DNA of 64,000 nucleotides from Acidovorax sp. A79 (lineage in GTDB: Bacteria > Pseudomonadota > Gammaproteobacteria > Burkholderiales > Burkholderiaceae_C). A program made the translations under genes and the position numbers. Below the pieces are notes generated by a model that ran no database searches, was not told where the DNA came from, and saw nothing but the letters and a program-made list of their open reading frames with translations. The DNA lies in the NCBI RefSeq assembly GCF_041154505.1, contig NZ_AP028672.1:1501001-1565000 (forward strand), written 5' to 3'. Below are positions 2,381 through 62,510 of the stretch, in pieces. Numbering within the stretch: the stretch's first letter is position 1; each line of letters begins with the position of its first letter.

Positions 2381-2712
2381 CGACTATGCTGAAGAAAAAA
2401 GACTGGTCCACGCAGACCCGCCGTGCGCTGAAAGCTACTGAAGTTGTAGCAAACCTGGCCAAACTCGAAGGCTGGAGCCTGACCGGAGATGGCGCCGACG
2501 TGGCCATCGAGAAGACCTACCGGTTCGCGAACTACTACGAAACCATCTCGTTCGTGAATGCACTGGCCTTCATCGCCAACGCGCAGGACCACCACCCCGA
2601 CCTGTCGGTGCACTACAACCGCTGCGTGGTGCGGCTGAACACGCACGACGTGCACGGCATCTCGTCCACCGATTTCGAATGCGCGACCCAGTTCGATGCC
2701 CTGGTGGCGTGA
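2377..2712 (+). CDS. phhB: 4a-hydroxytetrahydrobiopterin dehydratase (pterin-4a-carbinolamine dehydratase)
   Basis: A 111-residue enzyme that dehydrates 4a-hydroxytetrahydrobiopterin so that the pterin cofactor of aromatic amino acid hydroxylases is recycled. The family signature DHHPDLSVHYN is present near residues 70-80, with the paired His residues of the active site. The ATG overlaps the protease stop (ATGA), so the two are translationally coupled. Residues around 20-25 (ATEVVA) are encoded by a copy of the dispersed GCTAY palindrome, in a helical stretch that evidently tolerates it. No phenylalanine hydroxylase gene is nearby, so the physiological partner is unknown. Confidence 0.93.
   Translation: MTTMLKKKDWSTQTRRALKATEVVANLAKLEGWSLTGDGADVAIEKTYRFANYYETISFVNALAFIANAQDHHPDLSVHYNRCVVRLNTHDVHGISSTDFECATQFDALVA
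2434..2450. repeat. GCTAY palindrome, copy A (inside phhB)
   Basis: GCTACTGAAGTTGTAGC, a 17-base imperfect palindrome in an otherwise GC-rich gene. It is read in frame as Ala-Thr-Glu-Val-Val-Ala. The arms GCTAC/GTAGC match the other copies in this window. Confidence 0.75.
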
Positions 2713-2750
2713 CCCCATGACGCCGCGCACCACCACCAACACAACATCCC

Positions 2751-3695
2751 ATGGCTGAACGCAGCGCGCTCATGGAAGGCACCGTGGTGGCCAGCCATGG
2801 GCGCCACTGCATGGTGGAGACGCCCGACGGCGAACGCCGCATCTGCCATCCACGCGGCAAGAAGAGCCAGGCCGTGGTGGGTGACCATGTGCTGTGGCAG
2901 GCACCCCCGCCTGGCCAGGGCGAAGAGGGCACCATCGAAAAGGTCCAGGAGCGGCGCAACCTCTTTTACCGCCAGGACGAGATCCGCACCAAATCGTTTG
3001 CGGCCAACCTCGACCAGGTGCTGATCGTCATCGCGGCGGAACCCGTGTTCTCGGAAAGCCAGCTCTCCCGCGCGCTGATCGCCGCCGAGGCCGAAGGCAT
3101 CACGCCCCTCATCGCGCTCAACAAGAGCGACCTGGTGGAACCCTTCGCCCGGGCCTGGGAGCGCCTGCTCCCCTACCGCCACATGGGCTCTGGCAAGCAC
3201 TACGGCGTGCTGCCGCTGTCCCTGGCGCTATCGAGCGATGTGGACCGCGCGCTGCTGATGGAGCACCTGCAGGGCAAGACCACGCTGGTGCTGGGGCCCT
3301 CGGGCTCGGGCAAGAGCACCCTCATCAACCTGCTGGTGCCGGGCGCCTCGGTGCTGACCGGCGAAATTTCGCAGGCCCTCAACTCAGGCAAGCACACCAC
3401 CACCAGCACCCACTGGTACTGGATGGACAAGGCCCGCACCACGGCCCTCATCGATTCGCCGGGTTTCCAGGAATTCGGGCTGCACCACATCGCCCCGATG
3501 CAGCTGGCCGCCTGCATGCCCGACATCGCCCAACACGCGACCCACTGCAAGTTCTACAACTGCACCCACCTGCATGAGCCGGGCTGCGGCGTGCTGGACG
3601 CAGTGAAACTGGGCCCTTCCGCAGGCGGGATCAGCCCTACACGCTACAAAATATATAGCGACTTATTCGAAGAGCTGAGCCATACGCGGTATTGA
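2751..3695 (+). CDS. rsgA: Ribosome small subunit-dependent GTPase RsgA
   Basis: A 314-residue circularly permuted GTPase that helps late 30S maturation in the cytoplasm. An N-terminal OB fold (about 5-75) is followed by G motifs in permuted order: NKSD (124-127), then the P-loop GPSGSGKST (182-190), then DSPG (235-238). The C-terminal zinc knuckle has the C-x4-C-x-H-x5-C pattern at Cys266, Cys271, His273 and Cys279. The start at 2751 gives a normal length. The gene lies 38 bp after phhB, probably in one transcript. Near the C-terminus the codons for RYKIYS are a copy of the dispersed palindrome, so the last 17 or so residues may have been reshaped by it. Confidence 0.97.
   Translation: MAERSALMEGTVVASHGRHCMVETPDGERRICHPRGKKSQAVVGDHVLWQAPPPGQGEEGTIEKVQERRNLFYRQDEIRTKSFAANLDQVLIVIAAEPVFSESQLSRALIAAEAEGITPLIALNKSDLVEPFARAWERLLPYRHMGSGKHYGVLPLSLALSSDVDRALLMEHLQGKTTLVLGPSGSGKSTLINLLVPGASVLTGEISQALNSGKHTTTSTHWYWMDKARTTALIDSPGFQEFGLHHIAPMQLAACMPDIAQHATHCKFYNCTHLHEPGCGVLDAVKLGPSAGGISPTRYKIYSDLFEELSHTRY
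3643..3659. repeat. GCTAY palindrome, copy B (3' end of rsgA)
   Basis: GCTACAAAATATATAGC lies in frame, encoding the Tyr-Lys-Ile-Tyr-Ser stretch of RsgA. It is almost purely A/T between the arms, against a very GC-rich gene. Confidence 0.75.
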
Positions 3696-3700
3696 CCGGT

Positions 3701-3760
3701 GTTGATCAGTGCTGATCAGTGCTGATCAGTGCTGATCAGTGCTGATCAGTGCTGATCAGT
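3701..3760. repeat. Six tandem 10-bp repeats (GCTGATCAGT)
   Basis: Six head-to-tail copies of GCTGATCAGT start 5 bp after the rsgA stop. The first has T for C at its second base; the other five are identical. Each unit holds CTGATCAG, an 8-bp palindrome with a TGATCA core and one GATC. The 10-bp period places every copy on nearly the same face of the helix. No ORF crosses it convincingly. Confidence 0.97.
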
Positions 3761-3937
3761 ATCGATGCATGCGCAGCGCCGACGGCCGGGTCGGAGCCGG
3801 AGATACGAGGGCATCGACGCGAACCGCCCTCCGCATGGCATGCACCACGCCAGCGCACCCGTGGAACTGGCTTTGCATGGCCACCGGGTGCGCCCCCTCC
3901 GGGGGAAGGCGCCGAAGGCTACTAGGGGGATTTCCAG

Positions 3938-4924
3938 CTACCCCAGCAAACGCGCCAGCGTGAGCAGCGCCAGCAGCAGCATCCACACCACCACCGAGCG
4001 CCACACCAGCCCCACCACGCTGCGCAGGTGGCCCACCTCGGGCTCCCGGCCCGGCGTGGAATCGCTGTCGCCCATGTCGGCGTCGATCTCCAGGCCCTGC
4101 GGCGCATGCAGCTCGGTGCGCGCCTTCAGCGCCTCGCCCCCCAGGCGCACATTGATCGCGCCCGCGGTCGCCGCCAGCACCACGCCGTCGTTGTCATTGG
4201 GAAAACGCTGCGCATGGAATCGCCAGCCCTCGATGGCTTCCTCAAAGCTGCCCACCACGGCAAAGCTCAGCGCGGTGAGCCGGGCCGGAAGCCAGTCGAT
4301 GGCCGTCCACGCCTGGGCAGAAGCCTGCTGCAGCGAGGCACTGGCGGGCTGGGCGCCCGTGCGCTGCTTGTAGTGCCAGTAGCGCGATACGAATTCGGCC
4401 AGCCGGTACAGCACGGCACCCGTGGGCCCCAGGCCCAGCGCGGCCAGCACCGAGAACCAGGCCAGCACCCCGAACACATGCCGGTGGGCCGCCAGCACCG
4501 AGTACTCGATCACGTGGCGCACGATCTCGCTGCGTGGAAGCGCACCCACGTCCACCTGCTGCCAGTGGGCCAGGCGCTCCCGGGCGCCATCTTCATCGCC
4601 CTCTTCCAGCGCATCGCGGATGCCAGTGAAATGGTGGCTGAACTGCCGAAAGCCCAGGGTGATGTAGAGCACCGCCACGCTCCAGAGCACCGCGAAGGGC
4701 CAGCCCAGGCCCCACAGCAACAGCCAGTGGATGGCCAGCGTGAGGAGCGCGGGCACGACGACTGCGAGGCCCCAGGCCACCCAGCCATGGTGCGGCTTGC
4801 CCGCATCGAAATTGCGGCTGACGGACAAGGCCCACGCACGCAGACCTGCATGGATGGGATTGCTGCGTGCCAGCGGGCGGGCCTGCTCGATCAGCAGAGC
4901 GAACAGGATGGCGAAGAAACTCAT
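3938..4924 (-). CDS. CobD/CbiB-family membrane protein
   Basis: A 328-residue membrane protein resembling the CobD/CbiB (adenosylcobinamide-phosphate synthase) and AmpE superfamily. Hydrophobic helices are visible near residues 1-15, 50-95, 155-185 and 305-328. The stretch VVGSFEEAIEGWR near residue 230 is a hallmark of the betaproteobacterial group, as I recall it. No other cobalamin genes are nearby, so a role in B12 synthesis is not supported by context. The ATG at 4924 begins MSFFAIL; the open frame upstream is noise. It is the last gene of the leftward block that begins with rpsP, though a 181-bp gap separates it from the CoA pyrophosphatase gene. Confidence 0.8.
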   Translation of the reverse strand: MSFFAILFALLIEQARPLARSNPIHAGLRAWALSVSRNFDAGKPHHGWVAWGLAVVVPALLTLAIHWLLLWGLGWPFAVLWSVAVLYITLGFRQFSHHFTGIRDALEEGDEDGARERLAHWQQVDVGALPRSEIVRHVIEYSVLAAHRHVFGVLAWFSVLAALGLGPTGAVLYRLAEFVSRYWHYKQRTGAQPASASLQQASAQAWTAIDWLPARLTALSFAVVGSFEEAIEGWRFHAQRFPNDNDGVVLAATAGAINVRLGGEALKARTELHAPQGLEIDADMGDSDSTPGREPEVGHLRSVVGLVWRSVVVWMLLLALLTLARLLG

Positions 4925-5105
4925 GGGGGGCAATGATACTGGCGCCAAGCCGCAGGAGCGCGTGTTTGCGCCGAACCTCAGCGATACATCCACCATGAAC
5001 AGCGCGACACACCCGCAGCCCGCGGAACTGGCGCGGCCCAGGCCTGCCCTCCCGCGCAAGGTCCGCCCCGCCGCGCCGGGGACAGCCCCCCCGGCCGGGG
5101 AGGCC

Positions 5106-5828: not shown

Positions 5829-5853
5829 GAAAGGGGGTTCAACGGACCAGAAA

Positions 5854-5887
5854 ACAAAAAGCCGCTACAGGCAGATGCTGTAGCGGC
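5854..5887 (-). terminator. Intrinsic terminator of the rpsP-rimM-trmD-rplS operon
   Basis: On the minus strand GCCGCTACAG and CTGTAGCGGC form a perfect 10-bp stem around a 7-base loop (5861-5887), followed by a run of five T. It lies just beyond the rplS stop and upstream of the Nudix gene. Confidence 0.9.
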
Positions 5888-5909
5888 CTTGTCAGGACGA
5901 GCCCGCGCC

Positions 5910-6293: not shown

Positions 6294-6421
6294 GTGAGTT
6301 TCCTAGCGATCTTGTCCGCGCCAAAAATGGCTGCGTCGGGATTGACGTCTCAGTGTTTCGCGGGAGAACTCCCTGTCAAAACGGCCGGCCAGAGGATCGA
6401 AAAGCCTTTGATTATAGCAAT

Positions 6422-9388: not shown

Positions 9389-9405
9389 ACTACATATCTA
9401 ATAGC
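9389..9405. repeat. GCTAY palindrome, copy C (downstream of pit)
   Basis: ACTACATATCTAATAGC, with one arm base changed. On the minus strand it is preceded by CTTGATTTGCTAT, as is copy D at 11669, and followed by a TAAGCGCTAACG block that recalls the AGCGCTTG flank of other copies. Confidence 0.65.
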
Positions 9406-11580: not shown

Positions 11581-11668
11581 GGCGGTGCAGCGTGGACGGC
11601 AGAAAGACGGCAAGGGGCCAGATTATGGACAAAACAAGCCCATGGCGCCTGACGCACCATCCTTTTTT

Positions 11669-11685
11669 GCTACGAAATAGATAGC
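11669..11685. repeat. GCTAY palindrome, copy D (intergenic)
   Basis: GCTACGAAATAGATAGC lies between the livF terminator and the DUF486 gene. On the minus strand it shares the flank CTTGATTTGCTAT with copy C. Confidence 0.78.
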
Positions 11686-11733
11686 AAATCAAGCACAGAC
11701 GCCTTCCTGCCGGCGGCGGTTCGTGCCGCCATG

Positions 11734-15678: not shown

Positions 15679-17022
15679 TCAGGTGCCGCCGCCCTGCCCG
15701 TCTCCGGAATCGGCCGACGCATTGCGGTCCCGCAGTTCACGCAACTTCTGTGCGATCTTGATTTCGAGCCCGCGCTCCACCGGCGCGTAGAAACCGGGCT
15801 CCGGCATGCCTTCGGGCAGGTAGTTCTCGCCCGCCGCGAAGCCGCCCTCCTCGTCGTGCGCGTAGCGGTAGCCCTTGCCGTAGTCCAGCTGCTTCATGAG
15901 CTGGGTTGGTGCATTGCGCAGGTGCATGGGCACGGGGCGGGTCCCGTCCTTCTTCACCCAGGCGCGGGCCGCGTTGTAGGCCTTGTAGACCGCGTTCGAC
16001 TTGGGTGCGACGGCCAGGTACACCACGCATTCGGCCAGGGCCAGTTCGCCCTCGGGACTGCCCAGGCGCTCGTACACCTCGGTCGCATCCAGCGCCAGGC
16101 GCAGCGCGCGCGGGTCGGCCAGGCCGATGTCCTCGCTGGCCATGCGCACCAGGCGGCGGGCCATGTAGCGCGGATCGGCACCGCCGTCGAGCATGCGCAC
16201 CAGCCAGTACAGCGCGGCGTCGGGGTCGGAGCCCCGCACCGACTTGTGCAGCGCGCTGATGGTGTCGTAGAACTGCTCGCCGCCCTTGTCGTAGCGGCGC
16301 ATGCGCTCGCCCAGCACCTTGAGCAGCCAGGCATCGGTGATCTCGGGCAGCTTCTCCTGGGCCGCCGCCATCGCCAGGGTTTCGAGCGTGTTGAGCAGGC
16401 GGCGGGCATCGCCGTCGGCGTAGGCCACCAGGCGCTCGATTGCTACATCTTCAATAGCTGGAAGCGCTTGCTCCGCCTGGGCCAGGGCCACAATCTGCTT
16501 CAAATCCTGCTCGGACAGCGGCTGCAGCACATAGACGGCGGCGCGCGACAGCAGCGCGGAGTTCACCTCGAACGAGGGGTTTTCGGTGGTCGCGCCGATG
16601 AAGGTGAACAGCCCGCTCTCCACATGCGGCAGGAAGGCATCCTGCTGGCTCTTGTTGAAGCGGTGCACCTCGTCGACGAAGACGATGGTGCGCTGCTGCA
16701 TCAGCCCGTCGCGCGCGGCCTCGGCGCGTTCCACGGCCTCGCGGATGTCCTTGACCCCGCCCAGCACGGCGCTGATGCTGATGAACTGCGCATCGAACGC
16801 ATCGGCCATCAGGCGCGCGATGGTGGTCTTGCCCACGCCGGGCGGCCCCCAGAGGATGCAGCTGTGCGGGCGGCCCGACTCGAACGCGAGCCGCAGCGGC
16901 ATGCCCGGGCCCAGCACATGCTGCTGGCCGATCACCTCGCCCAGCGTGCGGGGCCGCAGGCGCTCGGCCAGGGGGCGGTGGAGCGCCTGCGAGGTTTCTG
17001 GGGGGGCGTTGCGGGCGGCCAT
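15679..17022 (-). CDS. rarA: Replication-associated recombination protein A (MgsA/RarA)
   Basis: A 447-residue AAA+ ATPase acting at stalled replication forks, related to clamp loaders and RuvB. Walker A is GPPGVGKTT near 55-63, Walker B VDEVHRFNKSQQDAFLPHVE near 114-133, sensor ATTENPSFEVNSALLSR near 145-161. The ATG at 17022 gives exactly the length of the E. coli protein and has a G-rich site upstream; the start at 17088 has none. Codons for AIEDVA near 190 are a copy of the dispersed palindrome. In relatives the gene often follows lolA directly; here a DUF1304 gene on the other strand lies between them. Confidence 0.95.
   Translation of the reverse strand: MAARNAPPETSQALHRPLAERLRPRTLGEVIGQQHVLGPGMPLRLAFESGRPHSCILWGPPGVGKTTIARLMADAFDAQFISISAVLGGVKDIREAVERAEAARDGLMQQRTIVFVDEVHRFNKSQQDAFLPHVESGLFTFIGATTENPSFEVNSALLSRAAVYVLQPLSEQDLKQIVALAQAEQALPAIEDVAIERLVAYADGDARRLLNTLETLAMAAAQEKLPEITDAWLLKVLGERMRRYDKGGEQFYDTISALHKSVRGSDPDAALYWLVRMLDGGADPRYMARRLVRMASEDIGLADPRALRLALDATEVYERLGSPEGELALAECVVYLAVAPKSNAVYKAYNAARAWVKKDGTRPVPMHLRNAPTQLMKQLDYGKGYRYAHDEEGGFAAGENYLPEGMPEPGFYAPVERGLEIKIAQKLRELRDRNASADSGDGQGGGT
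16442..16458. repeat. GCTAY palindrome, copy E (inside rarA)
   Basis: GCTACATCTTCAATAGC, read on the minus strand in frame as Ala-Ile-Glu-Asp-Val-Ala. It is followed five bases later by AGCGCTTG (16463-16470), a flank also seen beside copy K and the decayed copy in the Nudix gene. Confidence 0.78.
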
Positions 17023-17765: not shown

Positions 17766-17838
17766 GCCGCGCCCGGGCAGCCAGCGCCACCCTTGCGGTC
17801 CCTTGTGGCCGCTAGCGCCCTGCCGGAAGGCGCCAATA

Positions 17839-17855
17839 GCTATCTATTCAATAGC
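17839..17855. repeat. GCTAY palindrome, copy F (between DUF1304 and lolA)
   Basis: GCTATCTATTCAATAGC, flanked by GC-rich sequence. It lies in the convergent gap 43 bp beyond the lolA stop, where it could fold as a small hairpin. Confidence 0.78.
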
Positions 17856-17897
17856 AGGCGGGCAACCCAGGCACCGGCAACCGGCCGCCGCAGAACG

Positions 17898-18533
17898 TTA
17901 CTGCTTGACCACGTCCGCCCCGGCCGGGGGCTTGAACTGGAACGTGCCGGCGGGCAGCGCGGCATTGGCCTGCATGCCGGTGAAACGGATCAGCGAGCGC
18001 TGGCCGAAACTGTCCAGGATGTCCAGCGCCGCGAGCTGCTCGCCGGCAAAGCCCACGCGCACGCTCCTGAGCTGGCCGTCCTTGGCCTTGGGGCTGGCGA
18101 GCACCCACTGCAGGCCATCCTGGTCCGGCGCGGACTCCAGCGTGAATTCGGCCTTCAGCGCCGACAGATCGGGCGCCGAGGCCAGCAGCGCCGCCGGGGT
18201 GGTGCCCAGGGCCTGCGCCTGCGCGCGCTGGGTGACCTGGTTCAGGTCCACGTCGTAGAGCCACAGGGTCTGGCCGTCGGCCACGATGGTCTGCTCGAAA
18301 GGTTTCTTGTAGACGAACTTGAAGCGCCCGGGGCGCTGGAACTCGAAGCTGCCGCTGGAAATCTTGGTGCGCGCGGTCTGCCCGTCCTTGGGCGGCGAGG
18401 TCACCGTCTGGCTGAAGTCCGCCCGGCCGGTCTGCGTGCCCTTCATGAAGGATTCAAGGCTTTTCAGGCCATCAGCGCTTGCCAGTGTTGCGCTGGCAGC
18501 TATCAAAATTGCAGTGGCGATCTTTTTCAACAA
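17898..18533 (-). CDS. lolA: Outer-membrane lipoprotein carrier protein LolA
   Basis: A 211-residue periplasmic chaperone that carries lipoproteins from the LolCDE complex to LolB. A signal peptide (MLKKIATAILIAASATLASA, cut near 20) is followed by FSQTVTSPPK and SSGSFEFQRPGRFKFVYKKP, the hallmark of LolA, with the conserved Arg and aromatic residues lining the lipid cavity. It starts 45 bp after ftsK, probably co-transcribed. Part of the signal peptide coding sequence is a decayed copy of the dispersed palindrome. Confidence 0.95.
   Translation of the reverse strand: MLKKIATAILIAASATLASADGLKSLESFMKGTQTGRADFSQTVTSPPKDGQTARTKISSGSFEFQRPGRFKFVYKKPFEQTIVADGQTLWLYDVDLNQVTQRAQAQALGTTPAALLASAPDLSALKAEFTLESAPDQDGLQWVLASPKAKDGQLRSVRVGFAGEQLAALDILDSFGQRSLIRFTGMQANAALPAGTFQFKPPAGADVVKQ
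18499..18515. repeat. Decayed GCTAY palindrome in the lolA signal-peptide codons
   Basis: GCTATCAAAATTGCAGT keeps one arm and the A/T core; the other arm has drifted. It encodes Thr-Ala-Ile-Leu-Ile-Ala of the LolA signal peptide. Confidence 0.45.
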
Positions 18534-34110: not shown

Positions 34111-35226
34111 ATGGATTTCGATTTTTCTGACGACCAGGAACAACTGCGCGACGCCGTGCGCAAGTGGGTGGACAAGGGCTACACCTTCGAGCGCCGCCGC
34201 GCCGCCGTGGCCGCTGGCGGTTTTGACAGCGCCGCCTGGGGCGAACTGGCCGAGCTGGGCCTGACGGCGCTGACCGTGCCCGAGGCGCACGACGGCATGG
34301 GCCAGGGCGCCATCGACGCCATGGTGGTGGCCGAGGAACTGGGCCGCGGCATGGTGCTCGAACCCATCGCGCAGGCCTTCATCGCCAGCAGCGTGCTGTC
34401 GCAATACGGCACTGCCGCCGTGCAAGCCGCCTGGCTGCCCCGCGTGGCCAGCGGCGAGGCGCTGGTGGTACTGGCCTACCAGGAGCGCAAGGCGCGCTAC
34501 CGCCTGGACGTTTGTGAAGCAAAAGCCACTCAAGCGCAATCAGGACATGCGGTAACAGCTACAAAAAGCATAGTAGCCGCTGGCGATCAGGCCGATGCCT
34601 TCATCGTGCCGGCGCAGCTGGACGGCAAGATCGCCCTCTTCCTTGTGGAACGTTCGGCCGCTGGCGTGACCACGCGGGGCTACGTCACGCAGGACGGCAG
34701 CCGCGCGGCGGAAGTGCAGCTGGCCAACGCCCCCGCCACGCTCATCACCACCGACGGCCTGGCCGCGCTGGAGCTGGCCGTGGACACCGGCATCGCCGCC
34801 ACCTGCGCCGAGGCCGTGGGCGTGATGGACAAGACGGTGTCGCTGACCGTCGAATACATGAACCAGCGCAAGCAGTTCGGTGTGTTCATCGCCAGCTTCC
34901 AGGCGCTGCGCCACCGCGTGGCCGACATGAAGATGCAGCTGGAGCTGGCCCGTTCGATGAGCTACTACGCCAGCCTCAAGCTGGGCGCCCCCGCCGCCGA
35001 ACGCCGCGCCGCCATGGCGCGCGCCAAGGTGCAGCTGGGCCAATCGATGCGCTTCGTGGGCCAGCAATCGGTGCAGCTGCACGGCGGCATCGGCGTGACC
35101 GACGAGTACATCGGCAGCCACTACTTCAAGAAGCTCACGCAGCTGGAAATGACCTTTGGCGACACGCTGCACCACCTGGGCGAGGTGTCGAGCCGCATGC
35201 AGGACACCGCAGGCGTGTTTGCCTGA
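34111..35226 (+). CDS. Acyl-CoA dehydrogenase family protein, small-subunit type (PimD-like)
   Basis: A 371-residue partner of the previous protein. It starts MDFDFSDDQEQLRDAVRKW and has MNQRKQFGVFIASFQALRHRVADMK (broken: QRKQFG near 252-257, FQALRHRVADM near 262-272) and LHGGIGVTDEY near 330-340, the usual small-subunit marks. The codons near residues 148-156 (VTATKSIVA) are a 20-base copy of the dispersed palindrome, in a surface-like, low-complexity loop. It shares the AGGAGACAAG ribosome binding site with the first gene. A terminator follows. Confidence 0.9.
   Translation: MDFDFSDDQEQLRDAVRKWVDKGYTFERRRAAVAAGGFDSAAWGELAELGLTALTVPEAHDGMGQGAIDAMVVAEELGRGMVLEPIAQAFIASSVLSQYGTAAVQAAWLPRVASGEALVVLAYQERKARYRLDVCEAKATQAQSGHAVTATKSIVAAGDQADAFIVPAQLDGKIALFLVERSAAGVTTRGYVTQDGSRAAEVQLANAPATLITTDGLAALELAVDTGIAATCAEAVGVMDKTVSLTVEYMNQRKQFGVFIASFQALRHRVADMKMQLELARSMSYYASLKLGAPAAERRAAMARAKVQLGQSMRFVGQQSVQLHGGIGVTDEYIGSHYFKKLTQLEMTFGDTLHHLGEVSSRMQDTAGVFA
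34558..34577. repeat. GCTAY palindrome, copy G (inside the small-subunit dehydrogenase gene)
   Basis: GCTACAAAAAGCATAGTAGC is 20 bases, three longer than the others, so the reading frame is kept. On the minus strand it is followed by a tract that matches the flank of copy K at many positions, including CTGATTG. Confidence 0.75.
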
Positions 35227-37414: not shown

Positions 37415-40400
37415 TCAGCGGCCCAGCCGGCGGCGGTGCATCCACACCATGGCGGCGAGCAGGGCCGACAGGAGGACCATGCCCCACTCCGACAGCGTGG
37501 GAATGGCATTGGCGTCCACCGGGGCGGGTGCGAACCGGAACACGGCCGTGCAGTCCGCCGCCACGGACGGGATGGTGTAGGCGGTGAAGTTCGCGTTGAA
37601 GCTGCCGCCACCGCAGGTGCTGGAGGCATCCCATGCAGCGCGCATGCCCTTGGCAGGCGACAGCACGATCACCGCGTTCGTCCCCGGCATGACGGACTGC
37701 GTCGCAGGGCTAACGGTTCCGCCGCCGGAAAGGACGGAGGCCGCCACCACCGGGTTCGGCACGAAGGCAAATACCGCGGAGCAGTTGGCCGCCACGCCGG
37801 GGACGGTGTACACCGTGCTGTCGGCATTGAAGCTGCCGCCCGTGCAGGTGCTGGAGCCATGCAGCGTCGCATGCAAACCCGCGGCGGGAGACAGCGTGAC
37901 CACCGCGCTGGCGCCGGGTGGCACGGACTGCGCACCGGGACTGACGGTACCGCTGCCAGAAAGCACGGAGGCCGTCACCACCGGGTTCGGAACGAAGGCG
38001 AACGACACGGAACAGGCTGCCGCCACGCCCGGGACGGTGAACACCGTGCTGTCGGCATTGAAGCTGCCGCCCGTGCAGGTGCTGCCTGCCGCCAGGGTGG
38101 CGCGCTGGCCGGCGCCTGGCGTGAGCGTGACGACGGCCGTGCCCCCCACTGCCACCGATTGCGACGCAGGCGTGACGCTGCCGCTTCCGGATGCCACGGA
38201 AGCCGTCACCACCACGGGCGCCAGGAAACCGAAGTTCACCGTGCAGTCGGCAGGCACCGGGGCAATGGTGTAGGTGGTGCCGGACCAGGTGCCTGCGGGG
38301 CAGGAGCCCGTGGGCGGGGCGCTGGTGTAGCCGGTGGTCGGCGTCACCACGTAGGACACGGAGCCCCCGTTCAGCACCGTCTTCGGCGCATTCGGCGTGA
38401 TGGCGCCGCCGGTGCCCACCGACGGCGTGACCGTGGCCACGCCGGAGTTCACGAAGCTGAAGTTGACCACGCAGTTTTGGGCAATCGCGTTGGTCGTGTA
38501 GGTGCTGCCCACCAGCGCGCCGCCAGTCTGTGCGCCGCCGGCGGCGCAGTTGTCGGTGATGACCGGTGCGTAGCCCGCATTCGGCATGACCATGAACGAG
38601 GTGGTGCCGCCCGGTGCGACAGGCTGCGTCACGGCAGGGGTCACTGAGCCGTTGGCACCCACCACGGGCGTCACATCCAGGGGGATGGTGAAGCTCGCGG
38701 TCACGGTCTTGGAAGCATCCATGGGCACGGTGCAGCTGGTGGCCGCGCCCGAGCAGCCGCCGCCGCTCCAGCCCGTGAAGATGGAGCCGGCCGGCGCCGT
38801 GGCGTAGAGGATGACCTCGGCGCCGCCAGGCTGGTCGGAGGCGCAGCTGGCTCCGCAGGAGATGCCCAAGGGCACCGAAGTGACCGTGCCCGTGCCGATC
38901 GTGTGAACCTGCAGGTTGAACAGCCCCGCCCCCACGGGATCGGAGTCGGTGGCCGTGTTGTTGGAGCTTTCACGGTCCCGCACGCCAGCCGGTGCCGTCA
39001 CCGTGGCCGTGTGCCGGATCGTGCCTGCGCCGCTGGCGGACGGGTCGGCCTGGGCCGCGATGGTGTAGGTGAGCGTTCCACCCACCGGCACCGGGTCCGG
39101 CAGGGTCTGGCTCACGGGCCCCGTGCCCGAGGCCAGCGGGCACACGGCCCCGCCCGATGCCGCGCAGGTCCATGCGATGCCGGTCAGCGATGCCGGGGCC
39201 AGCTCCTGGACCATGGCGCCAGCCGGCACCGCGGTCGGGCCGAGGTTGGTCACCGTCATGGCGTAGGTGAGGGCCTGCCCCCAGATCACGGCGTTCTGTC
39301 CGTCGGACAGGGCCACGCTCAGGTCGACCAGGGGGTCCGTGGTGATCTGGCTCTGGACCAGCGGCCCGAGCAACGGCGATATCGCATCGCCCACGATGGA
39401 ATAGTTGCCGTGGTTGATGGGGCCGGTGGTGAGCGCCGGCGCCACGAACGACAGCTGGAGCGTGCCGCTGCTGCCCGGGTTCAGGGTTCCCAGGGGGCAG
39501 GAGATGCTATCGATCTCGTTGCCCGCGGTACCGGACACACTGGTCGTGCACGCGGCGGGCACGGAGCCCGGATCGATGCGCAGATTCCTGGGTGTTCCCG
39601 GCGTGTTGTCTTGCGGGGACACGATGGTCACCACGGTGCTCGTGAGGGGTACGTCACCCTGGTTCGAGTACGAGTAGGTGTAGTCCACGCTGCCGTTGGC
39701 AGCCGCGTACTCCGGCGCATCGGCCTTGATGCCGGGGCCCGGCAGGTTGGTCAGGCCGGCCCCCGAATCGACGTAGATGTGGCCCGAGTGCCCGCTCTGG
39801 CTGCAGCCCGCCGCGATCACGGTGACCTTGACCTGATCGCCCACATCCAGCACGCCCTCTCCGGGCGCGATATCGATGGTCTGCCAGTTGGTGTACTGGA
39901 AGCCCCCCACGGTCTGCCAGGGCACGCCGGACTGGCCCGAAAAGTTGAACGTGTAGAACAGCTGCTTGTTCTTGGTGACGTTGTACACCTCGACAAAGAA
40001 GTAGGGCTGCTCGTGCCCGGAGTGTCCGGGGTTCTGCAGCACCGGGGCGATGGCGAAACGCACGTGCGCCTTGCCGTCCGCCGGGTCCACGTCGGCCAGC
40101 GTCATCACGGCCGTCTGGTCGATGGCGGCGGCGCGGTTCTGGGCGCCCAGGTAGTTGACGCGCGCGCTCTTTGCCCCATAGAGCGGGAAACGCACTTGCC
40201 CACTGACGTTGATGTCGGAGTCATTGCCCACGGCATCGGTCGGCGCGGGCGTGGAGGTGGTGTTGGGCGTCAGCCCCAGATCACTCTCCGAGCCGGGCGG
40301 GAAGTTGGCCAGCGCAATGCCGGCACCGGGCACACGCAGGTGCCGGATGTTCCAGCTGTCCAGGTCGCTCTCGAAGCCGCCATTCACGAACGCCGCGTGC

Positions 40401-44162: not shown

Positions 44163-44295
44163 GGAACGGTAAGTACACAAGGATTCGGAACGCTGATGTC
44201 TCGCGGGCAGCCCCGTACCGGGCCGTCCGTGGGTCACAATATACTCCGTTTTCATGACAAATTGGCGTCTTGCGCTTGATGCACCTGCGCATGCT

Positions 44296-44312
44296 GCTAT
44301 CAAAAAGATAAC
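44296..44312. repeat. GCTAY palindrome, copy H (just before ribF)
   Basis: GCTATCAAAAAGATAAC, with one arm base changed (AAC for AGC). It ends 6 bases before the ribF ATG, so it overlaps the place where the ribosome binding site should be; no other good site is seen. On the minus strand it is followed by a tract with GCGC and CATCAAGCGC, like the flank of other copies. Confidence 0.62.
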
Positions 44313-45486: not shown

Positions 45487-48360
45487 ATGTCCGACAACGC
45501 CAGTACCACCGAATCCACCGCCACGGACTACCGCAGCACCCTGAACCTGCCCGACACCCCCTTCCCCATGCGCGGCGACCTGCCCAAGCGCGAGCCGGGC
45601 TGGGTGAAGGAATGGGAAGACAAGGGCCTGTACAAGCGCCTGCGCGACGCACGCTGCGGCGCGCCCAAGTTCATCCTGCACGACGGCCCGCCCTACGCCA
45701 ACGGCCAGATCCACATGGGCCACGCGGTCAACAAGATTCTCAAGGACATGATCACCAAGGCGCGCCAGCTCGAGGGCTTCGACGCGCTGTACGTGCCCGG
45801 CTGGGACTGCCACGGCCTGCCGATCGAGAACGCCATCGAGAAGAAACACGGCCGCAACCTGAGCCGCGACGACATGCAGGCCAAGAGCCGTGCGTTTGCC
45901 ACCGAGCAGATCGCGCAGCAGATGGTGGACTTCAAGCGCCTGGGTGTGCTGGGCGAATGGGACAACCCCTACAAGACCATGAACCCCGCCAACGAGGCGG
46001 GCGAAATCCGCGCGTTCAAGCGTGTGATGGAGCGTGGTTTTGTCTACCGCGGCTTGAAGCCTGTGTACTGGTGTTTTGACTGCGGCTCTTCGCTGGCCGA
46101 GTTCGAGATCGAATACCAGGACAAGAAGAGCACCACGCTGGACGTGGCGTTCAAGGCGCACGAGCCTGCCAAGCTGGCGGCCGCGTTCGGCCTGCCCGCG
46201 TTGACCAAAGACGCATTCGTCGTCATCTGGACCACCACCGCCTGGACCATCCCCGCCAACCAGGCGCTCAACCTGAACCCAGAGATCGGCTACGCCCTGG
46301 TGGACACCGGCGAGCGCGTCCTGCTGGTGGCCGAGCCGCTGGTGGCCTCGTGCCTGGAGCGCTATGGCCTCACGGGCAGCGTGCTGGCCACCACCCTGGG
46401 CAAGAACCTGGGTGGGCTGGAGTTCGAGCACCCGCTGTACGATGTGAAAAGCGAGGACGGCAGCCAAGGCTACCAGCGCCTGTCCCCCGTGTACCTGGCC
46501 GACTACGCCACGGCCGACGATGGCACCGGTATCGTGCACTCCTCGCCCGCCTACGGGCTGGAGGATTTCAACTCCTGCGTGTCCCACGGCCTGGCGCTGG
46601 ACGACATCCTGAACCCCGTGCAGGGCAACGGTACCTATGCGCCGGACTTCCCGCTGTTCGGCGGCCAGCACATCTGGAAGGCCGTGCCCGTCATCATCGA
46701 AGCACTGCGCGATGCCGGCCGCCTGATGGCCACCAAGGAGATCACGCACAGCTACCCCCACTGCTGGCGCCACAAGACGCCGGTGATCTACCGCGCGGCC
46801 GCGCAATGGTTCATCCGCATGGACGAAGGCGAAGGCGTCTTCACCCAGCCCGGCATGAAGCCCGCCAAGACGCTGCGCCAGATCGCGCTGGACGCCATCG
46901 AGCACACCAGCTTCTACCCCGAGAACGGCAAGACCCGCCTGCACGACATGATCGCCGGGCGGCCCGACTGGTGCATCTCGCGCCAGCGCAGCTGGGGGGT
47001 GCCCATCCCGTTCTTCCTGCACAAGGATTCGGGCGAACTGCACCCGCGCACCATGGAAATCATGGACCAGGCGGCCGACATCGTGGAAAAGGGCGGCATC
47101 GAGGCCTGGAGCCGCGTGACGCCCGAGGAAATCCTGGGCGCCGAGGACGCGGCCTGCTACACCAAGAGCACCGACATCCTGGAGGTGTGGTTCGACTCGG
47201 GCTCCACGTTCAGCCATGTGCTGCGCGGCACGCACCCCGACGTGCACCACGACACGGGCCCCGAGGCCGACCTGTACCTGGAAGGCCACGACCAGCACCG
47301 CGGCTGGTTCCACAGCTCCCTGCTCTTGGCATCGGCGCTGGAAGGCCGCGCGCCCTACCGGGGCCTGCTGACCCACGGCTTCACCGTGGACAGCCAGGGC
47401 CGCAAGATGAGCAAGTCGCTGGGCAACGGCATCGATCCGCAGGAGATCAACAAGAAGCTGGGCGCCGAGATCATCCGCCTGTGGGTGGCCGCCAGCGACT
47501 ACTCCGGCGACATCGCGGGGGACGAAAATATCCTGGCCCGTGTGGTGGATGCCTACCGCCGCATCCGCAACACGCTGCGCTTCCTGCTGGCCAACGTGAG
47601 CGACTTCGACCCGGCCAAGGACGCCGTGCCGTTCGACCAGATGCTGGAGATCGACCGTTACGCCCTCACCCGCGCATCCGAGTTCCAGGCCGAGGTGCTG
47701 GCGCACTACAAGGTGTATGAGTTCCACCCCGTGGTCGCCAAGCTGCAGCTGTACTGCTCGGAAGACCTGGGCGGGTTCTACCTGGACGTGCTCAAGGACC
47801 GCCTGTACACCACCGCGCCCAAGAGCCTGGCGCGCCGCAGCGCGCAGACCGCGCTCTACCAGATCACGCATGCCATGCTGCGCTGGATGGCGCCGTTCCT
47901 GTCCTTCACGGCCGAAGAGGCCTGGAAGGTGTTCGGCCAGTCCGACTCCATCTTCGTGGAAACCTATGGCTCCATCGCCGGGGCCGACGAGGGCCTGCTG
48001 GCCAAGTGGGGGCGCCTGCGCGAGATCCGCGATGCGGTGAACAAGGAGATCGAGGCGCTGCGCGCCGCCGGCCAGGTGGGCTCTTCGCTGCAGGCCGTGG
48101 TCACCCTCACGGCCGCGCCCGAAGACCATGCGCTGCTGGCCAGCCTGGGCGACGACCTGAAGTTCATCTTCATCACCTCTGCTATTGAATTGGTAGCTGG
48201 TAGCGCACTGCAGATCAGCGTCAAGCCCAGTTCCGATGCCAAATGCGAGCGCTGCTGGCACTACCGCCCCGACGTGGGGCAGGATGCCGCGCACCCCACC
48301 ATCTGCGGCCGCTGCACCAGCAACCTCTACGGGGACGGCGAAAGCCGGGCGCACGCGTGA
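45487..48360 (+). CDS. ileS: Isoleucyl-tRNA synthetase
   Basis: A 957-residue class I synthetase that charges tRNA-Ile. [12 protein letters not shown] near 76-87 is the HIGH motif, [10 protein letters not shown] near 638-647 the KMSKS loop, and an editing domain lies between them (about 200-400). The C-terminal zinc knuckle is [12 protein letters not shown] near 920-931 plus CGRC near 940. The codons near residues 898-906 ([11 protein letters not shown]) include a copy of the palindrome, in the C-terminal region, a place that tolerates change. It overlaps lspA by one base. Confidence 0.97.
48181..48197. repeat. GCTAY palindrome, copy I (inside ileS)
   Basis: GCTATTGAATTGGTAGC, read in frame as Ala-Ile-Glu-Leu-Val-Ala. 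It is followed by TGGTAGCGCACTG, like the AGCGC flank of other copies. Confidence 0.78.
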
Positions 48361-51015: not shown

Positions 51016-51849
51016 TCAGGCGCCCAGAAAGCCCGCGATCACCAGTCCGGCTTCCAGGGTGAACGCCCCTTGCGCCACCTGTTCGCGCAGGCTGTCGAGG
51101 GAAAGCAGATCGAACCGCTCGACTTCCCCGTCCTGGTTGCAGGGCTCCAGGCCGTCGGGCACCTGGGCGCGGAACCAGTCGATGCGCTCCACCATGAAGC
51201 CCACGCCCCCGCCCTCGCGGCTGGGCCGGCTGAACAGCACGTGGCCGCCGTGCGCCACGCCCGCCAGGGCTTCGATGCGCAGCCCGGCCTCCTCCCAGGT
51301 CTCGCGCGCCAGCGCCTGCGGCAGGGTGTCGGCGGCCGCCACCATGCCGCCCATCAGCGTATCCCACAGGCCCGGGTTGTTGGGCTTGGTCAACGCCCGC
51401 TTTTGCACCCACATGCGGCCGTCCGGGGCCAGCCCCACCAGGTGCACGGCCCGCGTGGCGATGCCCAGCACGCGCACGGCGCCGCGCTCCACGGTGGCCA
51501 CCACGTCGCCCTGCGGATTGCACACGGCCAGTTGCTCATTGCGCCAGGGGCCGCACCGGCCCGCGCCCCGCAGCACCGCCGCCAGGGCGTTGAGCGCCTC
51601 GGTGGCCCCTCCCGGGGGCGATTGCAGGTGCCAGGCGGGTGCCCCCTGATGCTCTGTTTTTGATAGCTCGTAGCGCTTGTCGATGGCGCGCGAGGCACCA
51701 ATCTGCTCCAAGAACCCTTCGGCCACCGAGCCCACCACCTGCCCGGCCGCCAGCAAGGCTTGGCGGGACTGGGCGGCGGGCTGCCGCGCGGCCTGCCGGG
51801 CGCCCGCCAGCCAGTGCCCGAACGGCGTGCTGCCGTGCGCCGCGCTCAC
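51016..51849 (-). CDS. Nudix hydrolase with N-terminal DUF4743-type domain
   Basis: A 277-residue Nudix protein. The C-terminal half has the Nudix box GGMVAAADTLPQALARETWEEAGL (ends: GGMVAAAD near 164, ARETWEEAGL near 178-187) and LTKPNNPGLWDTLMGG just before it. The N-terminal part has WRNEQLAVC and resembles the DUF4743 domain of thiamine-pyrophosphokinase-related Nudix proteins. The substrate is unknown. The start is a GTG at 51849 that overlaps the stop of the quinone oxidoreductase gene by 4 bases, so translation is coupled. A decayed palindrome lies in its 5' third. Confidence 0.85.
   Translation of the reverse strand: MSAAHGSTPFGHWLAGARQAARQPAAQSRQALLAAGQVVGSVAEGFLEQIGASRAIDKRYELSKTEHQGAPAWHLQSPPGGATEALNALAAVLRGAGRCGPWRNEQLAVCNPQGDVVATVERGAVRVLGIATRAVHLVGLAPDGRMWVQKRALTKPNNPGLWDTLMGGMVAAADTLPQALARETWEEAGLRIEALAGVAHGGHVLFSRPSREGGGVGFMVERIDWFRAQVPDGLEPCNQDGEVERFDLLSLDSLREQVAQGAFTLEAGLVIAGFLGA
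51657..51679. repeat. Decayed GCTAY palindrome with AGCGCTTG flank (in the Nudix gene)
   Basis: TTTTTGATAGCTCGTAGC (51657-51674) keeps the TTTTTGATAGC half, and AGCGCTTG (51672-51679) is the same flank seen at copies E and K. The first arm is lost. Confidence 0.5.
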
Positions 51850-58844: not shown

Positions 58845-59675
58845 TCAGAAAGTGCCCGGGTAGGCGCCGCCGTCCGCCAGCACGTTCTGCCCCGTCATGT
58901 AGCCCGCCTGCTGGCTGCACAAGAACGCGCAGATGGCTCCGAACTCCTGGGCCGTGCCGTAGCGCCCGGCCGGAATCTGCGCCTGCTGGGCGCTGCGCAC
59001 GTCGTCCACGCTCTTGCCGGCCTTGCTGGCGGCCGCGTTCACGGTGGCGGCGAGCCGGTCGGTGTCGAACTTGCCGGGCAGCAGGTTGTTGATGGTCACG
59101 CCGCGCGCGGCGATCTTGCTGCGCGAGACGCCGGCCACGAAGCCGGTGAGCCCGCTGCGCGCGCCGTTGGACAGGCCCAGGATGTCGATGGGCGCCTTCA
59201 CGGCGCTGGAAGTGATGTTGACGACGCGGCCAAAGCCCCGTGCGGCCATGCCGTCCACCGTGGCCTTGATCAGTTCGATGGGCGTGAGCATGTTGGCGTC
59301 CACGGCCTTGATCCATGCGTCCCGGTCCCACTCGCGGAAGTCGCCCGTGGGGGGGCCGCCGGCATTGGTCACCACGATGTCGAAGTCACGCCCTGGCCCG
59401 CCGGCCACGGAGAACACGGCCTCCCGTCCGGCGGCGGTGGTGATGTCGGCGGCCACGGCCAGCACCCGTGGCTTTGGCTGATTCTGCCCGCCAGCGTTAG
59501 AATTTTGTGCGGCTTCAGCTATCAATTGAGTAGCAGCCTGATCGAGGGCGTCCGCATTGCGGGCGTTGATGACCACATTGACGCCCTCGCGCACCAGGGC
59601 CAGCGCACAGCCGTAGCCCAGGCCCTTGCTCGCGCCGCACACCAGCGCCCATTTGCCTGCGATACCCAAATCCAT
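58845..59675 (-). CDS. Short-chain dehydrogenase/reductase with an altered catalytic site
   Basis: A 276-residue SDR. The cofactor motif is GASKGLGYG near 13-21 and the NAG motif (VVTNAGGPP) lies near 101-109. Ser near 155 is present (NITSSAVKAP), but the usual Tyr-x3-Lys is Ser-x3-Arg in LGLSNGARSGL. The same substitution marks the BKR-like SDR group that lacks a perfect catalytic tetrad, as I recall. Annotation as a FabG-type ketoacyl reductase is therefore doubtful. Codons near 50-60 (ATQLIAEAA) are a copy of the palindrome, in an insert after a helix. ATG at 59675. Confidence 0.88.
   Translation of the reverse strand: MDLGIAGKWALVCGASKGLGYGCALALVREGVNVVINARNADALDQAATQLIAEAAQNSNAGGQNQPKPRVLAVAADITTAAGREAVFSVAGGPGRDFDIVVTNAGGPPTGDFREWDRDAWIKAVDANMLTPIELIKATVDGMAARGFGRVVNITSSAVKAPIDILGLSNGARSGLTGFVAGVSRSKIAARGVTINNLLPGKFDTDRLAATVNAAASKAGKSVDDVRSAQQAQIPAGRYGTAQEFGAICAFLCSQQAGYMTGQNVLADGGAYPGTF
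59518..59534. repeat. GCTAY palindrome, copy J (inside the SDR gene)
   Basis: GCTATCAATTGAGTAGC, in frame on the minus strand as Ala-Thr-Gln-Leu-Ile-Ala. Beyond it the reading continues EAAQNSNAGGQNQ, a low-complexity insert that may have come with the element. Confidence 0.78.
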
Positions 59676-59743
59676 AACAATCTCCGGTTCTGACGGCTGC
59701 ACCCTGCGGCCTTTGAAAACCATCATACGTGGAGAGTTGCAAG

Positions 59744-60355: not shown

Positions 60356-60366
60356 GGAAAGCCGCC

Positions 60367-61410
60367 ATGCGACTGCCCTTTTCCCCTGCCTGCACGCGGC
60401 CGCTGGCCGCTGCGTGCGCCGCCCTGGCGCTCACCCTGGTGCCGGTCTGCGGCCATGCCCAGAACGTGATGAACCTGCTCAACTCGCTCGGTGGAGGCAC
60501 CAGCAGCAGCGGTGGCGGCCTGCTGGGCGCCGTCACCGGCGGCGGCAATGCCGCCCGGGGCGACGACCTCATCAGCCTGCTCACGCGCTCGGTGGAGAGC
60601 ATCGACGAGCCGAAAGAGATTGAAATCGGCCGCCAGCTCGCCGCCGTGCTGCTGGGCAGCAAACCGCTGCACCCGGACATGGCCCTGCAGCGCTATGTGA
60701 ACAACCTCGGGCGCTGGATCAGCCTGCAGTCCGAGCGCCCCCATCTTCCCTGGACCTTCGTCGTGCTGGACGATCCCGGGTACAACGCATTCGCCGCGCC
60801 GGGGGGCTACGTGTTCGTGACCAAGGGCCTGATCGACCGCTGCGCGGACGAGGCCGAACTGGCGGGCATCCTCGCCCACGAAATCACGCACGTCACCGCC
60901 AGGCACCACCTGCACGCCATGCGCAAGACCGCGCAGTCCGGCATGTTCACGCAGCTGGTGGCGTCGCAGATCAAGACCAACGCCGTGGGGAACCTGGTGG
61001 CCTCGCAGTTCCTCGCCCTGGGCCGCAACCTGTATGCGCGCGGCCTGGACCAGGCCGACGAGTACGACGCGGACCGCACCGGCGTGGCCCTGGCCACGCG
61101 CGCGGGCTTCGATCCGTATGGGCTGGTGGCGGTGCTGCAGCAGCTGCGCACGGCCGCGCCCGACAACCCCATGTTCACGCTGGCCCTGGCCACCCATCCG
61201 CCCGCCCAGGCACGGCTGGAGCAGCTGGAGCTGGCCATGGGCAAGAACCTGGATGGCTTCATGGGCGTGGCGCCCGTCACGGTGGCGCAGCGCCTCAACC
61301 CCCAGCCTTCGCCGGCCTCCGGCCCCGCCGCCGCGGCGCCAGGCGCGGTGAATCCGGCGGCGGCGCCCGCCCGCAAGCCCGCGCCGCCCGCGCGGAAAAA
61401 GACCTCGTAG
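60367..61410 (+). CDS. M48 metallopeptidase, BepA/LoiP-like, exported
   Basis: A 347-residue periplasmic protease. A signal peptide ends near 31 (GHAQNV). The zinc site is HEITH near 179-183, with the third ligand in DEYDADRTG near 233-241. FAAPGGYVFVTKGLID near 143-158 is a mark of the BepA/YfgC group, which checks outer membrane proteins and lipopolysaccharide assembly factors. The C-terminal tail is Pro/Ala/Lys-rich (ARKPAPPARKKTS). No TPR domain follows, unlike BepA. It is coupled with the SH3 gene upstream. Confidence 0.9.
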   Translation: MRLPFSPACTRPLAAACAALALTLVPVCGHAQNVMNLLNSLGGGTSSSGGGLLGAVTGGGNAARGDDLISLLTRSVESIDEPKEIEIGRQLAAVLLGSKPLHPDMALQRYVNNLGRWISLQSERPHLPWTFVVLDDPGYNAFAAPGGYVFVTKGLIDRCADEAELAGILAHEITHVTARHHLHAMRKTAQSGMFTQLVASQIKTNAVGNLVASQFLALGRNLYARGLDQADEYDADRTGVALATRAGFDPYGLVAVLQQLRTAAPDNPMFTLALATHPPAQARLEQLELAMGKNLDGFMGVAPVTVAQRLNPQPSPASGPAAAAPGAVNPAAAPARKPAPPARKKTS

Positions 61411-61464
61411 CGGAGCGGTGCCCGGGGCGCCCAAAAGGCGTGCCCACGCGGCGGGACAACAAGA

Positions 61465-61492
61465 AAAAAGGGCAGCGCGCGCTGCCCTTTTT
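61465..61492. terminator. Bidirectional terminator between the M48 and EamA genes
   Basis: GGGCAGC (61470-61476) and GCTGCCC (61481-61487) form a stem around GCGC, flanked by five A and five T. Confidence 0.93.
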
Positions 61493-61562
61493 CATGCCCG
61501 ACAGCGCCCCTCCCCCCGGGCCGTATCGCGTGGCATTCGGAGCACCACGGCAAGGACCTTCA

Positions 61563-62510
61563 TCAGGCCTGCTGGCGGCGCGCGAGCTGCGTGAACACGA
61601 AAATGCCGGCGATGACCAGCGCCGTGCCCGCGGCCACCCACACCGTGAAGGGTTCGCCCAGGATCCAGACACCCATGAGGATGGTGGACAGCGGCCCCAC
61701 CATGCCGGTCTGCGCGGTCATGCCGGCGCCCACGCGCTCGATCGCCATCATCACCATGAGCACGGGCGCGGCCGTGCACAGCGTGGCGTTGAGCACCGAC
61801 AGCCAGATCACCTCGGGCGCCACCACGGCCGCGCTGAAGGGCCGCAGCACCACGAACTGCAGCAGGCAGCACAGGCACGCCACCGTGGTGGCCAGCCCCA
61901 CCAGCCGCAAGGACCCCAGGCGCCGCACCAGCTCGCCGCTGTAGACCAGGTAGATGGCATAGCTCACCGCGCTCAGGAACACCAGCAGGGTGCCCCAGGC
62001 CGCATCGGCGCCCTGCAGGTTGGCCTCGTGGCCGAACACCAGCACCACGCCGCAGTAGCTGATCAGCATGCCCACGGCCTGGCCCCAGCGGATGCCGCGC
62101 CGGTACAGCACCCAGCCGAGCATCACCACCAGCGTGGGGTTCAGGTACAGGATGAGGCGCTCCAGGCTGGCGCTGATGTAGGCCAGCCCCGCGAAGTCCA
62201 GAAAGCTCGCCAGGTAGTAGCCCGTGAGCCCCAGGCCCAGCACGCCCAGCCAGTCCTTGCGCGACAGGGGCGGCTTGCCCCGGCTGGCCCACCAGGCCAT
62301 CACGGCGAAGATGGGCAGCGCAAACAACATGCGGTACATGATGAGCGTGACCGCGTCCACTCCGTAGCGGTACGCGAGCTTGACGATGATGGCCTTGCCG
62401 CTGAAGGCGATGGAGCCCAGCAGGGCGAGCAACAGGCCGGTTGCTACATTTTTTCTAGCTGCTAGCGCTTGTACTGATTGGGCTGGAGGCACTTTTTTCT
62501 CAAATCTCAT
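61563..62510 (-). CDS. EamA/DMT-family transporter
   Basis: A 315-residue inner membrane protein with ten hydrophobic helices in two EamA halves. ASLERLILYLNPTLVVML near 107-124 and IERVGAGMTAQTGMVGPLSTIL near 246-267 (ends given) are typical. The N-terminal codons (QALAARKNVAT near 14-24) are a copy of the palindrome plus its flank, so the protein's cytoplasmic start is partly element-derived. It starts at the ATG at 62510 and overlaps the stop of the gamma-glutamyltransferase gene by one base. Confidence 0.9.
   Translation of the reverse strand: MRFEKKVPPAQSVQALAARKNVATGLLLALLGSIAFSGKAIIVKLAYRYGVDAVTLIMYRMLFALPIFAVMAWWASRGKPPLSRKDWLGVLGLGLTGYYLASFLDFAGLAYISASLERLILYLNPTLVVMLGWVLYRRGIRWGQAVGMLISYCGVVLVFGHEANLQGADAAWGTLLVFLSAVSYAIYLVYSGELVRRLGSLRLVGLATTVACLCCLLQFVVLRPFSAAVVAPEVIWLSVLNATLCTAAPVLMVMMAIERVGAGMTAQTGMVGPLSTILMGVWILGEPFTVWVAAGTALVIAGIFVFTQLARRQQA
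62443..62459. repeat. GCTAY palindrome, copy K (start of the EamA gene)
   Basis: GCTACATTTTTTCTAGC with the longest flank: GCTAGCGCTTGTACTGATTG follows at once. The same kind of flank is seen, on the other strand, beside copy G. It encodes part of the N-terminal tail of the EamA protein. Confidence 0.78.

Follow-up and report, generated by a model that had tools for sequence, protein, structure and literature searches.

Why should an AT-rich palindrome recur inside one gene after another, and in the spacers between genes, of a single bacterial chromosome? The question is raised by a 64-kb stretch of Acidovorax sp. A79 (contig NZ_AP028672.1; the genome comprises 5.87 Mb in two contigs), referred to below as the window, in which the palindrome GCTAY-N7-RTAGC occurs repeatedly. 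The original prediction saw in it a small mobile element, embedded in a longer unit and tuned to give a harmless peptide. We describe here a bipartite signal of approximately 50 to 70 bp, the coding copies of which appear to have arisen by base change and not by insertion, and we tentatively propose, at somewhat less than an even chance, that it works as a DNA uptake sequence (DUS).

With the core written as GCTAYN7RTAGC, the window holds 13 matches with at most one mismatch, whereas 100 dinucleotide shuffles average 2.29 ± 1.64 and never attain that number; the equal density in shuffled sequence that would have spoken against the palindrome was not seen. Twelve of the 13 sites first picked out by eye are among these matches (the one given as 51657 is the core at 51651), and the thirteenth, at 18499, has two mismatches; the palindrome itself is confirmed. 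The one match beyond that list, at 39506, has no unit around it among the profile matches described below and is probably a chance occurrence. Exact cores number 285 in the whole genome, compared with 77 for a control pattern, the core read backwards, and 23 in a continuous 464-kb set of chromosomal sequence (the window plus loci L032-L051), where 0.47 would be expected from the half-site frequencies. Only the N7 spacing is enriched: other half-site spacings, from 3 to 15, give 0 to 2 pairs each in the same 464 kb. In 53 exact cores, taken from the 464 kb and from loci L001-L030, the variable places are filled by T-A in 26, C-A in 13, T-G in 13, and C-G in 1; the two half-sites are seldom both C/G there.

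The same 53 cores, 30 of which come from loci picked for having a core, were used to look beyond the palindrome without recourse to a profile. GCGC is found exactly 5 bases past the core on one side in 42 of them and on both sides in none, and 32 have GCGC at both +5 and +20; neither feature is seen in six control cores. The palindrome GCGCTT-N7-AAGCGC occurs 17 times in the 464 kb, and other spacings from 3 to 13 give 0 or 1. Forty-seven copies (of 56 profile references) align without a gap over 73 columns, with the consensus TTGCTATTnAATTnATAGCTnCTnGCGCTTGTnCnnCAAGCGCnAGnGGCCnATTT followed by a weaker tail, although the lack of gaps is partly a matter of selection, because the copies were chosen by profile score. 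At a threshold of 16 bits or more the profile marks 46 places in the 464 kb, while the reversed sequence yields none (best score, 11.3 bits); the 63 raw matches count some places on both strands and reduce to 46 to 47 non-overlapping ones. The density is approximately one unit per 10 kb, which extrapolates to some 580 copies in the genome. We conclude that the core is one part of a bipartite, polar unit of approximately 50 to 70 bp with two dyads; the longer unit with recurring AGCGCTTG flanks that had been suspected around the core is thus borne out both by the profile alignment and by the profile-free GCGC counts. The arms pair in 82.1% of positions, compared with a shuffle mean of 81.7% (156 of 500 shuffles are as high), and since they pair no better than shuffled arms, the conserved feature is the DNA half-sites and not pairing.

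Similar tracts were ascribed at the outset to other Comamonadaceae, and this proved correct. Abundance across the family is bimodal: among 299 genomes, representing 126 genera, 68 are rich (at least twice the control), 207 are poor (less than half the control), and 24 lie between. Four genera, g13, g65, g66, and g79, contain both rich and poor members; in g65, two genomes have 368 and 454 cores (G094 and G263) and two others have 6 and 3 (G189 and G323), a contrast that offers a natural experiment for finding a protein that reads the motif. For 30 genomes found by way of named loci, exact-core counts (forward/control) place most in one of two classes. The rich class includes Acidovorax radicis (292/90), Acidovorax HMWF029 (298/67), Simplicispira (213/64), D. 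nitroreducens (202/41), P. wautersii (262/73), three Polaromonas (393-409/45-60), two Rhodoferax (343/30 and 183/35), and OH2545 (127/33); the poor class includes D. aerolatus (11/91), Hydrogenophaga palleronii (0/61), Ideonella (0/52), Limnohabitans (3/40 and 3/43), Ramlibacter (12/43), and Curvibacter (11/48). Extensimonas (70/40), Comamonas kerstersii (25/38), and V. paradoxus (49/112) are intermediate. The profile finds no match in 60 kb of D. aerolatus, none in 111 kb of Variovorax, and one in 160 kb of other motif-poor DNA. The second dyad differs between lineages in its right half, which reads GCGC in 33 of 46 units and GGGC in 2 of 46 in the A79 genome, and GGGC in 10 and GGGT in 2 of 13 units in Rhodoferax (three of these 13 are the ileS site); its left half, with GCGC in 36 of 46 and 7 of 13 units, respectively, has not changed with it.

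Pfam confirmed the identity of the genes first named as holding copies, phhB, rsgA, rarA, a dehydrogenase gene (an acyl-CoA dehydrogenase), ileS, and the SDR and EamA genes, and adds lolA (18499) and the gene for a NUDIX protein (51651). All nine translated frames are free of internal stops, as anticipated for in-frame, tolerated peptides in permissive parts of genes. Seven of the nine sites, EamA and NUDIX being left out, were compared with relatives in 62 rows, 7 of which are the window's own; the SDR site has a single relative, and Extensimonas was classed as rich. The core is gapped in none of the 62 rows. Among relatives only, 37 of 40 motif-rich rows have at most two mismatches, and 12 of 15 motif-poor rows have more than two. 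Length is the same throughout, with GC-rich codons in the motif-poor relatives and AT-rich, motif-spelling codons in the motif-rich genomes.

The ileS site was compared more broadly, in 79 rows (two incomplete loci of 80 were left out). Again no row is gapped in the core; mismatches number 0 in 14 rows, 1 in 4, 2 in 2, 3 in 9, and at least 4 in 50, and the two rows with two mismatches, among the 20 counted as motif bearing, may be due to chance. The G+C content of third codon positions in the core is 0.22 in rows with up to two mismatches and 0.82 in those with at least four, the largest such difference along the gene. Identity of the core peptide is 0.32 in rows without the motif and 0.67 in rows with it, which indicates that this stretch of IleS is permissive and that the motif holds it. 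As judged by these alignments, relatives are separated at the compared coding copies by base changes that leave the length unaltered and not by inserted DNA, and the original prediction of a mobile element finds no support at the coding sites, with 0 of 62 and 0 of 79 gapped cores. Of the alternative outcome, that orthologues would be gapless and slowly drifting, the gapless part holds and simple drift does not, since codons tend to switch with the motif richness of the genome. Around intergenic copies, which may include insertions, spacer lengths vary between relatives.

The comparison was extended to 28 further ileS loci, 25 of which show no change in the spacing between the site and the zinc-finger motif; the three that differ (G189, G211, and G239) have no core, and G211 lacks it in spite of being motif rich. 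The core follows the genome count in g79 and g13, and in g66 save for one rich species without it; both rich species of g65 have eroded cores. Mapped on an IleS tree, the site requires 9 changes, 6 of them forced by well-supported branches, compared with 18.1 when labels are shuffled; the site is clustered, yet has been repeatedly gained or lost. At rsgA, the peptide RY-x-[IL]-Y is found in 22 of 23 rows and is spelled differently: CGCTACCGCATCTAC is an example from the motif-poor genomes, CGCTAYAAAATNTATAGC is used in several motif-rich ones, and CGCTATCGTTTRTATAGC in Polaromonas. With a limit of two mismatches the site discriminates weakly, native-like codons being found there both in three poor genomes and in the rich D. 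nitroreducens. Paracidovorax and D. nitroreducens (L165 and L168), which are native-like at this place in rsgA (window 2751-3695), carry a full unit in the same orientation just behind the gene, where others have none, as if one copy had been kept and shifted.

The 47 non-overlapping copies in the 464 kb, which is 83% coding, comprise 19 in called genes, 13 straddling a gene end, and 15 in intergenic DNA, according to our own simple gene caller, which chose the wrong strand for rarA. The 28 copies not inside genes lie at 10 convergent, 12 co-directional, and 6 divergent gene pairs. Read in one of its three frames, the core contains TAG; the eight exact in-gene cores use the other two (5 and 3). 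Over the whole genome, the best 150 of 3895 candidates were scored, and 149 chromosomal sites remained once a single second-contig row had been dropped; they are evenly spread (Kolmogorov-Smirnov [KS] P of 0.33), with 79 on the plus and 70 on the minus strand and local runs. Regular spacing was rejected (coefficient of variation of 1.17, compared with 0.97 for random placement), and the 79 to 70 division, no origin having been mapped, gives no sign of polarity with respect to replication.

Two long gaps interrupt the distribution. The longest, of 70 kb (G000:C1 positions ~1780150-1850345; L042-L046), carries prophage genes, including those for a phage tape measure protein, an M15 peptidase, an Rz-like spanin, and a nucleotide kinase; about 0.05 gaps of this length would be expected at random, an estimate from 46 sites. 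The assignment draws on 18 sampled proteins, with a Pfam family for 3 of 9 and a PHROG match for 3 of 9, one protein being in both sets. The second gap, of 33 kb (G000:C1 ~1598691-1631495; L033-L035), has 61.6% GC and a tyrosine integrase, and is probably a genomic island; 2 of its 8 sampled proteins gave a family match. The second contig proved unsuitable as a plasmid control: in 166 kb it has 20 units, and some of its sequence matches genes of chromosomal type. A BLAST search of plasmids with one unit gave no match, though copies are too diverged for this to say much, and viral contigs searched with ileS gave none. The strict unit is found in 36 viral stretches, a raw count that may include host flanks.

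Several kinds of dispersed repeat invite comparison. HIP1 of cyanobacteria is a single 8-bp palindrome, very frequent within and between genes and not spread by insertion; both it and the present core are palindromes found in genes and spacers, but HIP1 is far denser and lacks a long one-sided unit. REP elements with their RAYT transposases and the palindromic elements of Rickettsia are dispersed palindromic repeats that lengthen a site by insertion, the latter in frame inside genes, whereas the compared coding copies described here do not lengthen the site and the transposase domain Y1_Tnp does not track the motif. The nearest named repeat is BRE (PMC3110155), described in the parts of that paper covered as a repeat of ~90 bp from Bordetella and Comamonadaceae, mostly intergenic with some copies inside genes, averaging 69% GC in Bordetella, with tandem copies and 8 to 22 (at most 29) per Bordetella genome. 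Composition, host range, and tandem habit, as given in that description, differ from those of our unit, the core of which is AT-rich and occurs once in Castellaniella, the single Alcaligenaceae genome tested. No description of the motif was found in the titles and passages of the open-access literature, subscription papers being mostly outside the search; PMC2755013, in the sections covered, concerns CRISPR only.

The closest resemblance is to the DUS of Neisseriaceae, which is read by ComP, and the uptake signal sequence (USS) of Pasteurellaceae. From the portions of the two sources used (PMC2397512 and PMC3630211), these are over-represented, lie in core genes and spacers at permissive places, are missing from acquired DNA, vary with lineage, and are absent from some family members; the unit shares these traits, its variation with lineage being a tendency. 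DUS dialects, and members of the family without DUS, were described by Frye et al. (PMC3630211), and Treangen et al. (PMC2397512) attribute many DUS to recombination rather than point mutation, to go by the same portions. Like a DUS, a single motif is over-represented genome-wide (23 against 0.47, 285 against 77, and 46 against 0 in the counts above); coding copies arise in place and leave the gene no longer than before (0 of 62 and 0 of 79 gapped); and, judging from the two longest stretches of the 464 kb that lack it, the unit is absent from recently acquired DNA. Competence is on record among the relatives. In the sections covered, Davidson et al. (PMC4212676) report that A. temperans, A. 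facilis, and V. eiseniae are naturally transformable and that V. eiseniae takes up DNA selectively via type IV pili, pilus mutants losing transformation; those sections name no uptake signal, and their discussion gives Neisseriaceae and Pasteurellaceae as the families in which genome-wide signals are established. It is because the motif is over-represented, permissively placed, constant in length, lineage bound, and absent from acquired DNA, in relatives of competent species, that we favor an uptake signal.

On this explanation a type IV pilus receptor would bind the unit as a self-label during the import of free DNA. Motif-bearing alleles would be taken up and recombined more often, a form of molecular drive, so that the motif would accumulate wherever protein and spacer constraints permit, and a lineage that lost or altered its receptor would let its copies erode. 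The individual steps could be point mutations or homologous replacements; the data are compatible with both. It is conceivable, though we would not count on it, that the Comamonadaceae thus possess an uptake watermark of their own: a long, two-dyad signal, different from genus to genus and acquired or lost as a whole between sister species, that dictates codons in housekeeping genes (ileS, rsgA, rarA, phhB, and acyl-CoA dehydrogenase) and forms the basis of selective uptake in Acidovorax and Verminephrobacter. If so, it would constitute a third, independent uptake-signal system, with a long two-part signal and in common environmental bacteria; one could then test how specificity of uptake originates and disappears, and whether such motifs spread by drive or by selection, and sister species differing in nearly the whole set of copies would provide a handle on these questions.

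A number of observations weigh against an uptake signal. The unit is far longer than the 9 to 12 bp of known uptake sequences, is sparser at ~1 per 10 kb, and has a dyad symmetry that an uptake receptor does not need. DNA of three other Acidovorax species failed to transform A. temperans, again in the sections covered (PMC4212676), an outcome not to be expected from a shared motif alone. ComEC is present in rich and poor genomes alike (28 of 31 and 32 of 33), and GspH-type pilins are present throughout (26 of 26); no competence gene tested tracks the motif. The right half of the second dyad is mixed in Polaromonas (4 GCGC and 2 GGGC of 12) and in Simplicispira plus D. nitroreducens (12 GCGC and 6 GGGC of 27), which makes its variation a lineage tendency and not a clean dialect. 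Finally, much of this pattern would also be expected of a binding site for a chromosomal protein.

The last point leads to the main rival, in which the unit is the site of a nucleoid- or chromosome-organizing protein, binding as a dimer or pair of dimers, selected along the chromosome and co-evolving with the protein; we regard this as a real but rather doubtful possibility. A pair of dyads held at a fixed distance suits dimers, the distribution of the 149 best chromosomal sites is even (KS P of 0.33), the half-site letters are independent and not paired, and acquired DNA would be free of sites for a time in this case also. The right half of dyad 2 in Rhodoferax is not symmetric, however, the spacing between units is random, and the occurrence of rich and poor sister species within a genus would imply frequent loss of an organizing system, although none of these is decisive. 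Were this explanation correct, several hundred codon-imposing sites in housekeeping genes would point to a DNA-binding protein of wide effect.

The two remaining explanations fit less well. A REP- or miniature inverted-repeat-like mobile element inserting into genes and spacers, as first predicted, would account for several hundred dispersed copies and for the longer unit-bearing spacers of some relatives, such as those downstream of rsgA (Paracidovorax and D. nitroreducens) and at 9389, but it is made very unlikely by the ungapped cores at the seven coding sites (62 rows) and at ileS (79 rows). Y1_Tnp (PF01797) was detected in rich and poor genomes alike, 26 of the 30 in all, but not in the rich OH2545; its distribution is independent of motif count, and a link to a RAYT transposase was rejected. 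The only Y1_Tnp (RAYT-like) gene of the A79 genome has a decayed core ~35 bases past its stop, beside a glutamate synthase gene (L031:2195-2212; G000:C1 near 4328650), which would suit such an element. About as improbable is a transcription terminator or other RNA-level structure. In the consensus an A/T tract does lie shortly behind a GC-rich stem, but pairing equals the shuffle mean, with no compensatory pairing seen, 19 of 47 copies are inside genes and the other 28 are not confined to convergent pairs (10/12/6), the hairpin is broken in Rhodoferax, and no Rfam family reached its gathering score in the window.

The copies in the window illustrate the range of contexts; E values are those of the profile. 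On the minus strand, the unit at 2411-2451 (core 2434-2450; E of 0.0013) lies within phhB (Pterin_4a), where it encodes ATEVVA and orthologues are gapless, and that at 3606-3659 (core 3643-3659; E of 1.1e-5) lies at the 3' end of rsgA (RsgA_GTPase) and encodes RYKIYS. An intergenic copy at 9389-9405 (minus strand) consists of the core only, with one mismatch, and is absent from the profile list; several motif-rich relatives carry a unit in this spacer. The minus-strand unit at 11633-11686 (core 11669-11685; E of 0.0034) is outside called genes. In rarA (mgsA; MgsA_C), a minus-strand gene, the plus-strand unit at 16441-16490 (core 16442-16458; E of 5.2e-7) gives AIEDVA. Two minus-strand units are associated with lolA, one near its 3' end at 17806-17856 (core 17839-17855; E of 1.3e-7) and one at its 5' end at 18467-18515 (E of 2.2e-5 over 18467-18509; Pfam LolA), the core of which, at 18499-18515, is decayed in the window and intact in Paracidovorax.

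Within the acyl-CoA dehydrogenase gene (Pfam) the unit occupies 34529-34574 on the minus strand (core 34558-34574; E of 0.0007), and within ileS it occupies 48180-48223 on the plus strand (core 48181-48197; E of 7.4e-6), encoding AIELVA from residue 899. A plus-strand unit at 51650-51702 with a decayed core (51651-51667; E of 9.8e-6) falls in the minus-strand frame of the NUDIX protein (Pfam). The SDR gene (Pfam) contains a minus-strand unit at 59485-59535 (core 59518-59534; E of 0.00059), and a plus-strand unit at 62442-62495 (core 62443-62459; E of 7.5e-7) lies in the minus-strand frame of the EamA transporter, ahead of the Pfam domain; at both sites A. radicis is the only relative aligned. 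The remaining unit, at 44259-44312 on the minus strand (core 44296-44312; E of 6.5e-9 over 44259-44310), stands directly upstream of a riboflavin kinase/FAD synthetase gene (Pfam). Its core, GCTATCAAAAAGATA, ahead of the start of that gene, is near-intact even in the motif-poor V. paradoxus, and this sequence may serve the riboflavin kinase/FAD synthetase gene separately.

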